Shown one piece after another: positions 45,992 through 52,446 of a stretch of 64,000 bases of DNA. The stretch's first letter is position 1, and the number at the start of each line of letters is the position of its first letter. A program made the translations under genes and the position numbers. A model generated the notes under the pieces. The model was given only the letters and a program-made list of their open reading frames with translations. It did not search any database and was not told the origin of the DNA. The stretch covers positions 868,001 through 932,000 of the forward strand of contig NC_015389.1 of the NCBI RefSeq assembly GCF_000195315.1, given 5' to 3'. Source of the DNA: Coriobacterium glomerans PW2. Lineage in GTDB: Bacteria; Actinomycetota; Coriobacteriia; Coriobacteriales; Coriobacteriaceae.

Positions 45992-47680
45992 ATGATGGCG
46001 GAGGGGGTAAAGGATTGCGTTTGCTGCTCGAACGATGCGTGTCGATTCGGCGACAGCACCGTTTACCAGATTTACGTGAAATCGTTCAAAGACTCGAATG
46101 GTGACGGGATAGGCGATCTGGCTGGGATTATCGAGAAGCTCGATTACCTCGCCGAACTCGGTATCGATTACCTTTGGCTAACGCCCTTCTTCGCGTCTCC
46201 TCTTCACGACAACGGTTACGATGTGTCTGATTACAAAGCGGTGAACCCGCTGTTCGGCAGCATGGATGATTTCGACCGGCTTGTGGAGGGAGCATCCGCT
46301 CGCGGTATGAAGATCATGCTCGACATGGTTTTCAACCATACATCTTCAGAGCATACCTGGTTTCAGCGCGCACTGGCAGGGGATGCGCGTTATCAGGATT
46401 ACTATATCTTTCGTGAAGGGGTCCGAGATGAGCCTCCCACCAACTGGAAGTCAAAGTTCGGCGGATCCGCTTGGGAATACGTATCGGCACTGGGCAGGTG
46501 GTATCTGCATCTCTTCGATGTGACCCAGCCTGATCTCAACTGGGACAATCCTGCGGTTCGGGCTCAGCTGGCAGATGTTGTCAGATACTGGAGGCGCAAA
46601 GGGGTATCGGGCTTCCGCTTTGATGTCGTGAATCTCATATCAAAGCCTAGAGTCTTCATAGATGACCTGAAGGGAGACGGCCGTTCTCTTTATACCGATG
46701 GACCAAGGATCCATGAGTATTTGAAGGAGCTCGTAGCCACTGCCGGCATCGGCTCGATGATAACAGTCGGAGAGATGTCTTCGACGTCTCTTGCAGACTG
46801 CATGCGCTATACAGATCCCACTCGGCATGAGCTGTCGATGATCTTCAGTTTCCATCATCTCAAGGTAGACTACAAAGATGGTGACAAGTGGTCCCTCATG
46901 AGACCGGATATCTTGAGATTTCGCGAGCTGATTCGAACGTGGCAGCTAGGACTGCAATCTTGCGGGGGCTGGAATGCTCTGTTTCTGGGGAACCACGATC
47001 AACCAAGACCGGTATCGCGATTCGGAGACGACAAGACGTACTGGGATGTTTCGGCAAAGATGCTGGCGATCTTCATGCATCTCATGAGGGGCACCCCCTA
47101 TGTGTATCAGGGTGAGGAGATCGGCATGGGGAATCCGGGCTTCTCCTCGATCGAGCAGTACCGCGACGTCGAGAGCCTGAACTACTATCGAATTCTTCGA
47201 CATCGAGGTAAAAGCGAGCAGGAGGCGCTCGCCGTGCTCGCTCAGCGCTCGAGAGATAACTCGAGGACGCCGATGCAGTGGCAGGCCCGAACTCAGGCGG
47301 GTTTCACGGATGGCACCCCTTGGATCGAGACGTCTCGAGACGCTGCGAGAGCGAATGTAGCCAATGAGATCGTTGATCCGAACTCCATCTGGTCACTGTA
47401 TCGTCATCTCATCGAGCTTCGCAAGCAGATGCCGCTGATCGCGCGAGGATCAATCGCCTTTCTGGAGGTTATCTCTCCGAAGGTCATAGCCTATGTGCGC
47501 GAGCTGGATTCAAAGCGGTTGGTGGTGCTCAGCTCGTTTTCCAATGCCGTTGAGGCGGCGGTGCCGGCAGGGGAGATCGCCGGCATGAGGTTGCTCGCGA
47601 GCAGCTACCCCACTGATCCTGAAACAGATGACGGCATTGTCGTGCTTCGCCCCTGGGAGGGCGCGGCACTCATCCGATGA
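45992..47680 (+). CDS. treC: Alpha,alpha-phosphotrehalase (GH13)
   Basis: TreC hydrolyses trehalose-6-phosphate to glucose and glucose-6-phosphate. The 562-residue GH13 enzyme has VYQIYVKSFKDSNGDGIGDL, DMVFNHTSSEH, the nucleophile Asp in GFRFDVVN, the acid/base Glu in VGEMSS and the transition-state Asp in LGNHDQPR. The N-terminus has about 20 extra residues with three cysteines before the barrel. aaggga precedes the ATG. Close relatives split glucosides such as isomaltose, but the neighbouring trehalose PTS and TreR support this call. It ends eight bases before the left attachment repeat. Confidence 0.92.
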   Translation: MMAEGVKDCVCCSNDACRFGDSTVYQIYVKSFKDSNGDGIGDLAGIIEKLDYLAELGIDYLWLTPFFASPLHDNGYDVSDYKAVNPLFGSMDDFDRLVEGASARGMKIMLDMVFNHTSSEHTWFQRALAGDARYQDYYIFREGVRDEPPTNWKSKFGGSAWEYVSALGRWYLHLFDVTQPDLNWDNPAVRAQLADVVRYWRRKGVSGFRFDVVNLISKPRVFIDDLKGDGRSLYTDGPRIHEYLKELVATAGIGSMITVGEMSSTSLADCMRYTDPTRHELSMIFSFHHLKVDYKDGDKWSLMRPDILRFRELIRTWQLGLQSCGGWNALFLGNHDQPRPVSRFGDDKTYWDVSAKMLAIFMHLMRGTPYVYQGEEIGMGNPGFSSIEQYRDVESLNYYRILRHRGKSEQEALAVLAQRSRDNSRTPMQWQARTQAGFTDGTPWIETSRDAARANVANEIVDPNSIWSLYRHLIELRKQMPLIARGSIAFLEVISPKVIAYVRELDSKRLVVLSSFSNAVEAAVPAGEIAGMRLLASSYPTDPETDDGIVVLRPWEGAALIR

Positions 47681-47688
47681 GCAACGAG

Positions 47689-47712
47689 ATGCGAAGTGGG
47701 CCGATAAGCCGG
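47689..47712 (+). repeat. Left attachment-site repeat (duplicate of the rnpB 3' end)
   Basis: These 24 bases, beginning atgcgaagtggg and ending taagccgg, are identical to 52075-52098. Beyond base 24 the two sites diverge (ttttaata here, gttctgtc there), so this copy is only the terminal piece of rnpB left behind by integration. It starts eight bases after treC. Confidence 0.9.
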
Positions 47713-47750
47713 TTTTAATAAAATAGCAGGTAGATAGCTTGCATAAGCGA

Positions 47751-47770
47751 AAAATGTCCTAAAATGTCCT
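47751..47770 (+). repeat. Tandem 10-bp repeats, probable integrase arm sites
   Basis: aaaatgtcct occurs twice in direct tandem (47751-47760 and 47761-47770) at the integrase end of the element, 38 bases inside the left repeat. The core aatgtcct recurs at 51971-51978 near the right end. This is the layout of arm-type binding sites for a lambda-type integrase. Confidence 0.55.
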
Positions 47771-48916
47771 AAGTGCTGACTACCTCGTCCGTCCAAGATT
47801 CTGCATACGGATGCATTTTATATGCGGCTGCAATCGTCTTTGCTAGCATCTCTGCCTCTGGTCTGTCGTAGTATCTTTCCGTTATTGTCTTGCCTACATG
47901 TCCCATCATCCGTTCAATTTTTGACGGCTCGATTTCTAGCGTCCATTTAGTAAATGTCTGCCAGGAGTTGCGAAGATTGCGAACAGGATGACGAACAACA
48001 CCAGAATCGCGAATCTTGCGGTTGAAGCGATCTCGAAGCTTTTCTCGCCCGATTACGTCTCCGCATCCGTCATCGAGCAACCATTTGTCGCCCGTTTCCT
48101 GGCACAACTGATAGCGACGGTATCCGAGGATTCCTGGTATGACGGCTGCATGAACGCTTTGCGCGGTCTTAAGTCTCTTGCTGACCTTACCAAGCTTATT
48201 AACTTGACGGATAATTGGCACAATAGCAACGGATACGCCATCGTATTCAGCGAGCTCTATTTCTGAGTTCATGACACCCAGAGATTCGCCGACGCGCGGC
48301 CGCCGAACGCTGCTAAGATGAACCAGCGCTCCATGTAGCTGCCCCTAAGACTTTTCCAAATGCTGCAAAGTTCGTCAAGCGTCCAGATGCCCTTGTCTCG
48401 CTGAGCAGATGTACCGGGCATGCGATATCTTCTGTATGCTACTTCTGTGCTGCAAACCTCATGGGTGCCGCATTCGTCGAAAATTAACCTAAATGGAATA
48501 CGGGCCATTTCCGCCTGAGATCTGGTCATGGAGTCGTACCAATCTTGAACGGCGGCAGGTTTAACATCAGTTACATAGACATCAGCCCATCTAGGTTCAA
48601 TGTGCTTTTTCCATGCGATATGATAATGCTCAATAGTGCCCAGTGAAATTTCATTCGCATCGAGCCTACGTTTTAATACCGGCACCACCCATTGCTCGTA
48701 AGCTGCGGCCACAGTTGGAGCTGGGACATCGTTCGAGCAATCAATCTGCATTTTCGCCAGAAATCCGGATGCTTCCAAACGTGATCCTCGAATAGTTTTC
48801 GAGTGTCTTCTATAGCCCGTACCGTCGCCTGTGTTGCCCATCCAGCGGACGCGGTACCTGTTCTGTTCCAAATGTTCCACAGCTCCAAATGCACTGCGTT
48901 GTCTGCGCCGTGGCAT
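47769..48916 (-). pseudogene. int: Tyrosine integrase, frameshifted
   Basis: Two minus-strand frames make one phage-type integrase. The first (48916 down to about 48295) has an AP2-like arm-binding segment (YRVRWMGNTGDGTGYRRHS) and a core-binding domain. The second continues to 47769 with RVGESLGV, MMGHVGKTITERYY and the terminal tyrosine. The join falls in a cgcgcg run at 48293-48298: removing one CG gives FGG-RVGESLGV, exactly the first catalytic arginine box, so a two-base expansion is the likely lesion. The usual HxxR box reads RNLR (PVRNLRNSW), so its His is replaced. An ATG at 48916 follows an aaagga site. Confidence 0.85.
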
Positions 48917-49010
48917 AATAGCATCGTCCTTTCCTTTCGGGTATCGGACACGCCCCGCTCCCATCGCAGCCAAGCAAACAGGGAGCGGGGCATCTTGGCT
49001 TCTGTTCGAC

Positions 49011-49220
49011 CTACTTCTGCCTCCAGCGCTTACCGCACTCGCGGCACTGAAAATCGCCCTTCCCCCGTTTGCCGAGGCCGGCACCGCCTGCGACGGCCCC
49101 AAGAGGTCCCAGCACCAGTCCGCCGAGGGCGGCCTTCGTGATCGACATCTTTTTTCTGCCGCCGCTAAGCATGATGAAATCGGTGCTGCCGCATGCCGGG
49201 CACTTGATCTGCTTTGCCAT
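49011..49220 (-). CDS. Small zinc-ribbon protein with glycine-rich hydrophobic segment
   Basis: The 69-residue product has two CxxC pairs, CPAC at residues 7-10 and CREC near 59-62, that could hold one zinc ion, separated by a glycine/alanine-rich hydrophobic stretch (AALGGLVLGPLGAVAGGAG). Such zinc-ribbon plus hairpin proteins recur in phages and mobile elements, but no function is established. gggagga lies six bases before the ATG. It is in the element between the integrase and the membrane-anchored protein, all on the minus strand. Confidence 0.75.
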   Translation of the reverse strand: MAKQIKCPACGSTDFIMLSGGRKKMSITKAALGGLVLGPLGAVAGGAGLGKRGKGDFQCRECGKRWRQK

Positions 49221-49250
49221 GATTTCCTCCCATTGTCCCAGATAGATATA

Positions 49251-49988
49251 TCAATAGACGTTGAACTCGATAACCTGCGGAGCATCACTCGTGCCGGTGA
49301 CCTTCGCCTCGATCGTCTTGCCTTTCGTCTCCGCTCCGTAGCCGTTTGTGATATCGCAGGTGGACTTCAGACCCCAGGTGTTCTCGTCGAGCGGCTCAGC
49401 GGAGAGTTCGTTAAGCATGTAATGTACCTTGAAGCCATAGGGGTACTGTTTCTCGCCATAGGTCTTGACTGCTATCCATGCATCGGTTTTGTCAAGCTTC
49501 TTCTCGAGGGCATCACGCGTCGCCTTGGCCTGCTTCTCGCGCTCGATTCCCGCCTTGTCCTGTATGGTGATCTTCGCGTCATGGCCTCCAGCAGAGTCCT
49601 TCTCGACCTTTGTCACGACCATGTTCTTCGCATTCTCCTTCAGCGTGAAGCTGTAGGGGTCGTCGCTTTCGAACAGAGCGCCGTTGCTCTTCGTGCCGTT
49701 GTTGTACGTCACCTTCAGACCCGCATCATTTATTGATGCGATCGCCTCATCGAGCGGCTTGTCGACCAGACCGTCGAGCAAGTCCTCCTTCGCGTTTTTC
49801 TTCTTATCGCTTTTCTTCTTGCTAGTTTTCTGCTCCTGGGACTCTTTCTTCGGCGTCTCGGGTTGCTTGCTTTTTGACATAGCGTTACCGATCCCGGAAA
49901 TAATGAGAATAACTAGGATGATTGCCAGAATTTCTTTCTTCCCAAGCTTCTTCTTCGGTGCCGTTTTCCTCGAGTAGTGCTGAGGCAT
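49251..49988 (-). CDS. Membrane-anchored protein with PASTA-like segment, unknown function
   Basis: I do not recognise a named family. The 245-residue protein has a short basic N-terminus, one membrane helix (about residues 18-36), a Lys/Ser/Gln-rich linker (37-65), a PASTA-like unit (about 66-100, DKPLDEAIASINDAGLKVTY), a variable middle and a compact C-terminal domain (about 165-245, including WGLKSTCDITNGYG and VEFNVY-like VIEFNVY). The bulk would be outside the cell if the helix is a signal anchor. PASTA-like units bind muropeptide or lipid II in other proteins, so a cell-envelope role is inferred, not shown. aagga precedes the ATG at 49988. It is more AT-rich than the core genome. Confidence 0.7.
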   Translation of the reverse strand: MPQHYSRKTAPKKKLGKKEILAIILVILIISGIGNAMSKSKQPETPKKESQEQKTSKKKSDKKKNAKEDLLDGLVDKPLDEAIASINDAGLKVTYNNGTKSNGALFESDDPYSFTLKENAKNMVVTKVEKDSAGGHDAKITIQDKAGIEREKQAKATRDALEKKLDKTDAWIAVKTYGEKQYPYGFKVHYMLNELSAEPLDENTWGLKSTCDITNGYGAETKGKTIEAKVTGTSDAPQVIEFNVY

Positions 49989-50043
49989 TTTTAATCCTTC
50001 CCTTTCAACCCTCTCGACTGAACTCATGTATCAGATTATCGAT

Positions 50044-50676
50044 TCACGCCCTCCAATCTGCGGGTGCCGTATAGCTTACGACCTTGCCGATGACACGTAT
50101 CTCCGGGGCATCGGGATCGTCTTGACGGATCACGTAGTCTCGGTAATCCGGATCGTAACTTTCCGGATGTAGCCTGATTGCGTCATCGTCGAAAAAGATG
50201 CGTTTAAGTGTCGCATCCTCACCGTTGACAAAGACGACCCCTACATCTCCATTTTGCACGGGTAGTGCAGGATCAATCAATACGAGCGAACCATCAGGAA
50301 AAAGCTTATTCATCGAATTTCCAGAAGTAATAAGCCAGAAGCTGCTCTTGTGCGCTCGATACAAGCTCTCCTCAGTGTCGTGGACTATATCTGATTGAAG
50401 CAGAGCTTCCCGAGGTGTTCCGGCAGCTATGTTGCCGAAAACAGGAATAGGAAAAGAAGGGGCCGGCTGAGCCGCGACGGTATTTTCAAGACCAAGCAAA
50501 TAGGAGATCGTTACGCCTAACGCGGAGCTGAGCTTGATCAGGACACTTGATTTGACGTCATTGTCACCACTTTCATAGCGGGCTATCTGCTGCTGCGTGG
50601 TGCCGATTCGTTTTGCCAGCTCAGCCTGGCTCCATCCCTTTGCGTGTCTAGCCTCGCTGATTTTATAAGCTGCCAC
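50044..50676 (-). CDS. CI/LexA-type phage repressor (XRE HTH + S24 peptidase)
   Basis: The 210-residue protein has an N-terminal XRE helix-turn-helix (about 5-62, WSQAELAKRIGTTQQQIARYE) and a C-terminal S24 self-cleavage domain with serine S121 (SGNSM) and lysine K158 (ATLKRI). The likely cleavage site is A85-G86 (NIAAG). This is a lysogeny repressor inactivated by RecA during DNA damage. The start is GTG at 50676 with ggagg four bases before it. It is divergent from a small HTH gene, with operators between. Confidence 0.93.
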   Translation of the reverse strand: MAAYKISEARHAKGWSQAELAKRIGTTQQQIARYESGDNDVKSSVLIKLSSALGVTISYLLGLENTVAAQPAPSFPIPVFGNIAAGTPREALLQSDIVHDTEESLYRAHKSSFWLITSGNSMNKLFPDGSLVLIDPALPVQNGDVGVVFVNGEDATLKRIFFDDDAIRLHPESYDPDYRDYVIRQDDPDAPEIRVIGKVVSYTAPADWRA

Positions 50677-50794
50677 GGTACCTCCAAGAAACTCGGGTTA
50701 GTCGTATTCTACACACAAAAATGTTGTTGACAAACACGGAAATGTTGTTATAGGATACCAGACAACACGGTAATAATGTAAATGGGGTAGATGG
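50677..50794. promoter_or_regulatory. Lysogeny-type switch: divergent promoters with overlapping -35 boxes
   Basis: On the plus strand TTGACA (50727-50732) is followed at 16 bases by TATAGG for the HTH gene. On the minus strand TTGTCA (complement of 50728-50733) is followed at 16 bases by TAGAAT (complement of 50706-50711) for the repressor. The -35 boxes overlap on opposite strands. The direct repeat aaatgttgtt (50719-50728 and 50740-50749, 21 bases apart) and related acaacacgg copies are candidate operators. Confidence 0.7.
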
Positions 50795-51049
50795 ATGCGC
50801 AAGAACATGAAAGCGGAACGTGCCCGAAGAGGGCTCTCAGCAAAAGAGGTAGCTGGGAAGATCGGAGTGCATGAGAATGCTTTGCTGCGGTGGGAATCAG
50901 GTGAAACCGATCCGCTTGGATCAAATCTGATAAATCTTTCATCTTTTTATAAATGCTCCCCGGAGTATCTGCTGGCACAGACAGAGGAGCGAATGGGAAA
51001 GGTCATCTGCACGCCTAATGACATCTGCGATTTCCCAACGAGCAGCTAA
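50795..51049 (+). CDS. Small XRE-family HTH protein (Cro-like position)
   Basis: The 84-residue product is almost entirely a helix-turn-helix domain (AERARRGLSAKEVAGKIGVHEN, then LLRWESGETDP) followed by a short tail with LINLSSFYKCSPEYLL. Its position, divergent from the S24 repressor across a shared operator region, is that of a Cro-like antagonist. The ATG at 50795 is used; the purine-rich ggggtagatgg precedes it. Cro-type function is inferred from position. Confidence 0.82.
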   Translation: MRKNMKAERARRGLSAKEVAGKIGVHENALLRWESGETDPLGSNLINLSSFYKCSPEYLLAQTEERMGKVICTPNDICDFPTSS

Positions 51050-51129
51050 ATCTCTTCGAACCTTGACAACCGCACGACCGCACGCGACGCAGACCGGGGG
51101 AGCCGGCAGCGTCCGCCGAGCGGCAGGGC

Positions 51130-51158
51130 TCGGGCGCTCCCGCAGAGTAAGCGCCCGA
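51130..51158 (+). other. Hairpin between the HTH gene and the small membrane peptide
   Basis: tcgggcgct (51130-51138) pairs perfectly with agcgcccga (51150-51158) around an 11-base loop, with no T-run. It lies in the 145-bp gap upstream of the 32-residue peptide gene and may attenuate or stabilise its message. Confidence 0.4.
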
Positions 51159-51194
51159 AACAGTAACCATTCAAAGGAAGAAAGGGGGACCGAC

Positions 51195-51293
51195 ATGGAT
51201 GAAAGAGGACACTTGACGACCTCGGAAGTGGTGATCATATCAAGTTCCGTCTCTTTCACGATCAGTTTGATCCTATCTGTGCTTCTGAGATGA
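51195..51293 (+). CDS. 32-residue single-helix membrane peptide
   Basis: A 32-codon gene starts at ATG 51195 with a strong aaaggggg site seven bases ahead. The peptide has a charged start (MDERGH) and a hydrophobic helix (about residues 11-31, VVIISSSVSFTISLILSVLL) ending in arginine. It is too short for family assignment. Its size and topology resemble toxic or holin-like membrane peptides of mobile elements, which is inference. It follows the HTH gene in the same direction. Confidence 0.55.
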   Translation: MDERGHLTTSEVVIISSSVSFTISLILSVLLR

Positions 51294-51415
51294 CACGACT
51301 AAAAGGGGGTCGAATTCAACCCCTTGGTTATAGGACTCGAATTAGATTCATCCGCCGGCTCGGCATCAAAGTGGTGCTCGCGTCGAGATGGCTCTTTTCA
51401 TCGTCGCTAGCTGGC

Positions 51416-51958
51416 TCACCCGATGAAAGCTCTGATCAGGGAAATCACCGCGATCAGAAGCGATCCGACAGCGATCAGCACCGAAGTGACTGTGAGCCTG
51501 AAGTTGCGCGCCGCCGCCTCGTCGGCGGATTCGGCGAATCTGGAGAAGGCGTCGAACTGGTTTTTCAGGATGTCATGTATGCGCATGAACGCCGGGTCAT
51601 CTTCCAGCGTGCGAGGCTTCAATTCCTCGACGGCTCTCTCCAGCTGATCCGTCGCGGGATTCAATCCCTCGACCTGTCTTTCGCTCTGATTGATGTCGAG
51701 GGCAACTCTTTCCGAGGAGCGATCGCATGCGCTTCTGAGCGACTCGGTCAGATCAGTCATGTCGATGCTGGGGAGCTTCAAGTCCCTGAAGGGATGCGCG
51801 AGGGCGCTAATCCCCTTCAAAGATTCCGAAAGGGATTTGAGGCCCACAAACGATTGCGAGGTCGATCTTATGTCTTTGAAGATCCGGGGTGCTTCTGCGG
51901 TCCTCTTCGGATCCTCGTCGCCGGGGGATTCTTCTCCATCGGTTTCGTCATCCAGCAT
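51416..51958 (-). CDS. Tail-anchored membrane protein, unknown function
   Basis: I do not recognise a family. The 180-residue protein is acidic at the N-terminus (MLDDETDGEESPGDEDPKR), has helical, Ser/Leu-rich and then Glu-rich segments (about 25-125), and a single C-terminal membrane helix (about 155-178, LTVTSVLIAVGSLLIAVISLI). Most of it would be cytoplasmic with the tail in the membrane. The ATG at 51958 follows aaggtgag. An antisense frame covers the same bases but has no ribosome site or domain-like order. It is the last gene before the right attachment site. Confidence 0.65.
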   Translation of the reverse strand: MLDDETDGEESPGDEDPKRTAEAPRIFKDIRSTSQSFVGLKSLSESLKGISALAHPFRDLKLPSIDMTDLTESLRSACDRSSERVALDINQSERQVEGLNPATDQLERAVEELKPRTLEDDPAFMRIHDILKNQFDAFSRFAESADEAAARNFRLTVTSVLIAVGSLLIAVISLIRAFIG

Positions 51959-51970
51959 TGCCCTCACCTT

Positions 51971-51978
51971 AATGTCCT
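51971..51978 (+). repeat. Right-end copy of the arm-site core aatgtcct
   Basis: aatgtcct repeats the core of the tandem repeats at 47751-47770 and lies about 100 bases inside the right attachment repeat. An 8-base match alone is weak, but its end position supports an arm-site role. Confidence 0.35.
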
Positions 51979-52074
51979 TAATAAGACCTAACTCAATACA
52001 AAATAGATAAATTCAGATACTTCAGAGTGTATAACCGCAGGTCAAAGACATATGCAAACTCACAGATAACAACA

Positions 52075-52098
52075 ATGCGAAGTGGGCCGATAAGCCGG
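52075..52098 (+). repeat. Right attachment-site repeat within the rnpB 3' end
   Basis: This copy of the 24-bp repeat lies inside rnpB, covering the 3' strand of the terminal P1 helix and the bases leading into the conserved region near the 3' end. Because the element reconstitutes the gene end, rnpB remains complete. Confidence 0.9.
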
Positions 52099-52446
52099 GT
52101 TCTGTCGCGGACGATCATTTATCTTGGCGTGCGCGTTGCCACGCAGCTCTGTGCACGCTACCCGAGCGCGGTGCGGGTCACACCATAGCGCCCCTATTTG
52201 CGCTTGCTCCGGATGGGGTTTGCCAAGCCATCGCGTCGCCGCGATGCTGGTGGTCTCTTGCACCACCGTTTCAGCTTTTCCCTTGGCGCGGCCAAAGGGC
52301 CGGTCGGTGGGAGTCTTCTTTTCTGCGGCACTTTCCGTCGGGTCGCCCCGCCTGGCCGTTAGCCAGCATCCTACCCTGTGGAGCCCGGACTTTCCTCACG
52401 CGGTGAGATCTCGCTCAGCCGCGCGCGATCGTCTGGCCCGCTTCGC
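52077..52446 (-). ncRNA. rnpB: RNase P RNA (bacterial type A)
   Basis: The minus strand holds the conserved bacterial RNase P RNA segments: gaggaaagtccgggctcc (complement of 52380-52397) near the 5' end, a gatgctggctaacggcc block, and acagaacccggctta (complement of 52091-52105) near the 3' end. The two ends form the P1 helix (gcgaagcgggcc at the 5' end against ggcccacttcgc at the 3' end, one mismatch). Length is about 370 nt. It is the catalytic RNA that matures tRNA 5' ends. Ends are set by P1 pairing and are approximate by a few bases. Confidence 0.95.

Follow-up and report, generated by a model that had tools for sequence, protein, structure and literature searches.

Integrated elements at tRNA and tmRNA genes are the subject of Islander (PMC4383910). 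In such prophages and islands, which tyrosine recombinases insert, the 3′ end of the target gene is regenerated, a displaced fragment of it marks the other end, and the integrase adjoins one att site. Protein genes can also serve as integration targets, dusA being a known example, and the dusA islands tie one integrase family to one housekeeping target (PMC4482086).

The element described here, from Coriobacterium glomerans PW2, has the regenerated 3′ end, the displaced fragment and the adjoining integrase of the tRNA and tmRNA islands, but its target is the RNase P RNA gene, rnpB. It also resembles the dusA islands in its housekeeping target; however, the site used by dusA integrases is a protein gene's 5′ end, whereas the integrase family found here shares a common arm-type site and has various targets, including rnpB. 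A full-text literature search, with subscription papers outside its scope, gave no report of an att site in rnpB or of phage integration into rnpB; matches to rnpB together with attB or attL were unrelated.

A 64-kb stretch of the chromosome (the window) was analyzed. It contains a 24-bp direct repeat with identical copies at positions 47689–47712 and 52075–52098, and these enclose an integrated element. With high confidence, it is a decayed temperate prophage that a tyrosine recombinase inserted at the rnpB 3′ end.

The rnpB gene is on the minus strand at 52075–52444 and is a bacterial class A RNase P RNA (Rfam RF00010, 271.3 bits, full length at 1–367). Its last 24 nt form the right copy of the repeat (the attR core, minus strand), so placed by the first-pass annotation also. 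The left copy (the attL core, minus strand) is a displaced copy of the rnpB 3′ end and lies 8 bp from treC, annotated by NCBIfam as alpha,alpha-phosphotrehalase (45992–47680); the distance of eight bases given previously agrees with this. No tRNA or tmRNA gene is present in the window. A pattern search of the whole 2,115,681-bp genome shows two matches to the 24-bp sequence, even with three mismatches allowed, and it is therefore not a dispersed repeat, one of the conditions that had been named as fatal to an integrated element. As in other elements integrated by a tyrosine recombinase, direct repeats flank the segment, one of them completing the target gene, and an integrase gene of the family (here frameshifted) adjoins an att site.

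The ends of the element display a second pair of signals. Read on the minus strand, the left end is ACCTGCTATTTTATTAAAA followed by the core, and the right end has ACCTGCGGTTAT 32 bases after the core. The P arm-type integrase site, ACCTGCTATTT, is at 47721–47731 (minus strand) and starts 19 nt before the core start, the same offset as in four phage contigs described below (L126, L127, L132 and L142). The P′ arm-type site, ACCTGCGGTTA, is at 52032–52042 (minus strand) and starts 56 nt after the core start; motif and offset are the same in L126, L127 and L132. The pattern ACCTGCNNTTW is found three times in the 64-kb window, where 0.22 matches would be expected; the arm sites account for two of the three. 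When the element ends are joined in silico, the product has the layout of an attP: an ACCTGC arm at −19, a core of the rnpB 3′ end, and a second arm at +56, counted from the core start. This matches the attP of L126, L127 and L132. For recombination between the attP of an rnpB phage and the rnpB end, the predicted overlap is the 7-bp CGGCCCA. Thus the repeat, the split attP geometry and the phages with the same core in an intact attP all back integration at the rnpB 3′ end, as had been proposed.

The integrase gene (47769–48916, minus strand) is a pseudogene in this genome, being split by a frameshift near 48300. The two integrase open reading frames align contiguously to the intact integrase of Lancefieldella rimae, with 45% and 53% identity; since the parts align without a break to one protein, one base has been lost. 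The first-pass annotation placed an integrase next to the left repeat copy, which is correct as to position, but it overlooked the frameshift as well as the matching arm-type sites at both element ends. Programmed frameshifting was rejected as an explanation, as the gene shows no slippery site and lacks one base relative to the homolog. A sequencing error is, in principle, a possible cause of the frameshift.

From the left copy, the gene order is integrase, zinc-ribbon protein, YPYG protein, CI, Cro-like regulator, and a 183-aa orphan. The zinc-ribbon protein of 69 aa (49011–49220, minus strand) matches the zinc-finger domain protein PHROG_24502 (E-value = 1.9e-12). It is followed by a membrane-anchored protein with a C-terminal YPYG domain (49251–50027, minus strand; NCBIfam YPYG_dom, 2.3e-27), a possible cargo of the superinfection-exclusion type. 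The CI-type repressor (50044–50676, minus strand) has HTH_3 and Peptidase S24 domains (Pfam S24 3.7e-21, HTH_3 4.2e-16; PHROG_4 transcriptional repressor 2.2e-39). Divergent from it on the plus strand is a Cro-like HTH regulator (50795–51049; Pfam HTH_3 1.2e-12; PHROG CII-like/transcriptional regulators). The gap between CI and Cro has two similar 16-bp repeats (50713–50749), in which ACACNNAAATGTTGTT is present twice, 21 bp apart; these putative operators cover two facing promoter-like sites, which are consensus matches only. The orphan (51416–51967, minus strand) is acidic and coiled, with a C-terminal hydrophobic helix as judged from its sequence, and has no match in Pfam, PHROG, NCBIfam or PADLOC. 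The G+C content is 51% in the element and 60% in the window.

An integrase, CI and Cro order of this kind is usual for the lysogeny module of temperate siphophages. Searches of 47713–52074 against Pfam and PHROG show no structural, packaging or lysis genes, which are expected of a functional prophage. There is no family match to satellite replication or packaging genes of the PICI type (Pfam, PHROG, NCBIfam, PADLOC), and no match in the element to the relaxase or conjugation genes of an ICE or IME (Pfam, PHROG, NCBIfam). The earlier view of the gene content, a repressor switch with no structural or conjugation genes, is borne out by the CI/Cro pair; the membrane protein at 49251–50027, previously listed among unknowns, has the YPYG match. 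By its predicted genes, the element is a lysogeny module only (integrase, zinc-ribbon, YPYG protein, CI and Cro) with the integrase frameshifted, so that the ability to move on its own has probably been lost.

The same features bear on a different reading, that of a compact but complete mobile element, either a phage satellite or a minimal integrative element, that borrows helper functions, its frameshift being either recent or an error. In favor of this, the att sites and arms at the two ends are intact, and so is the CI/Cro region with its operator-like repeats. However, the integrase frame is broken, searches gave no gene for packaging, replication, a relaxase or a satellite hallmark, and the same gene set was not found a second time in phages or relatives. 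This reading is considered very improbable, and that of a decayed prophage is preferred.

Phages with an rnpB core are found in IMG/VR. A pattern search with the rnpB 3′ end yielded L119, where this core comes directly after the end of an integrase gene and before lysis genes, an arrangement as expected of a free attP. Two other pattern matches (L120 and L121) have no integrase open reading frame in the stretch around the match and are probably due to chance. A search with the L119 integrase gave 19 related loci, and pattern scans added L193, L195 and L196. In each of L126, L127 and L132 an rnpB-like core is accompanied by arms at −19 and +56, and L142 combines such a core with the first arm. 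L124, which is the same contig as L119, displays the core, an inverted first arm and a variant of the second arm. In all, eight IMG/VR contigs from several metagenomes have an rnpB 3′-end core beside a related integrase. L195 is a near-repeat of L193, and L196 repeats L127, so the eight represent about six distinct phages.

Tail tape-measure proteins are encoded in L124, L142 and L196, and endolysin-like proteins in L124, L126 and L142; L126 also has a RecT-like protein, and L193 a ParB-like one. Such genes identify several of these contigs as siphophages. None of the cargo genes of the window element aligns with the rnpB phages, apart from weak matches between repressor-like HTH proteins. The N-terminal part of the integrase and CI have no close relatives in the viral contigs, and the former has none in phage records.

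The rnpB gene is unoccupied in relatives of the same family (38 loci). None of these loci has a match to the element proteins. The yigZ side of rnpB is conserved in many of them, and treC is near rnpB in none; a genome with treC beside rnpB and no insert was not found among the 38. Among 397 genomes of the order, the second arm comes after rnpB only in the window genome and in one other (G225). In the latter (L199, contig G225:C3, around 98160–98290), the second arm is part of about 130 bp next to rnpB that resemble the right ends of phage attP, and no integrase is present in the 80 kb read. This locus is the scar of another prophage at rnpB, in another family of the order.

Pattern doubles are found in 18 genomes of the order and are mostly coding sequence or duplicate rnpB contigs. 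In one genome (L064, G397:C2, 1501–1594) the rnpB 3′ end has an exact 24-bp copy of itself 70 bp further on, over the stretch that forms the att core in the window; this copy is possibly a shrunken insertion at the same site. In another genome (L060, G353:C87) a second copy of the 3′ part of rnpB lies 169 bp from the first. The short tandem copies of the rnpB end in G353 and G397 could suggest that in the window, too, this end was partly duplicated by a chromosomal rearrangement, the nearby integrase being unrelated, but this has next to no probability and is strongly disfavored by the attP geometry, with arm sites at −19 and +56 as in phage attP, and by the phages that carry the same core beside related integrases.

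Almost all bacteria have an RNase P RNA, and it is essential to them. The 3′ strand of its terminal helix, P1, lies within the att core. P1 of the window rnpB (52075–52444) has a C·A mismatch where nearly all of 60 distinct sequences have a C-G or U-A pair; the same mismatch is present in L004. The mismatch was rejected as proof of editing by a phage, both att copies carrying the same A. That integration and excision swap the P1 3′ strand, so that phages alter RNase P itself and the C·A mismatch is the scar of a phage-borne 3′ end, is an unlikely though conceivable interpretation.

The closest integrase to that of the window is from a prophage of L. rimae ATCC 49626 (L045), with 48% identity over 379 columns. 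As in the window, an ACCTGC motif is found shortly after the integrase gene. The core in L. rimae, however, is not rnpB, its rnpB being on another contig; an att repeat of this prophage was looked for and not found. A tree of 54 integrases, with fragments among its labelled rows, joins the window and L. rimae integrases as sisters with 100/100 support, the pair being on fairly long branches. Six rnpB phage rows form one group (support 93/87); the L124 integrase is a short fragment and its placement is unsure. The window integrase shares the target of these phages but probably not their origin. Constraining all rnpB rows to one clade is rejected (p-AU 1.3e-7), and thus rnpB targeting probably had two or more origins in this integrase family.

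Related integrases in Coriobacteria often have the ACCTGC motif shortly after the gene, and 19 bases on from it, an offset taken from the rnpB cases, these loci show cores other than rnpB. Where both arms are visible they are 74 to 76 bases apart whatever the core. By eye, the core position in L167 resembles the 3′ end of rpoD, and that in L168 the 3′ end of an ornithine carbamoyltransferase gene. One contig (G005:C6) has the same integrase twice (L175 and L184), about 42 kb apart.

The proposed history of the window element is as follows. The attP of a phage would have carried a copy of the rnpB 3′ end between two arm-type sites, and recombination with the chromosomal copy would have produced an intact rnpB at one end and a displaced 24-bp copy beside treC at the other. 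We infer that structural, replication and lysis genes were then lost, which would leave the present lysogeny module with its frameshifted integrase.

Convergence seems to have brought two lineages of integrase to the same rnpB end with a common attP layout, and relatives that share the arm-type site appear to use other gene ends. This convergence, together with the other targets in relatives, would make integrase retargeting testable by sequence, and the rnpB end offers integration tools for Coriobacteria a landing site that is conserved.
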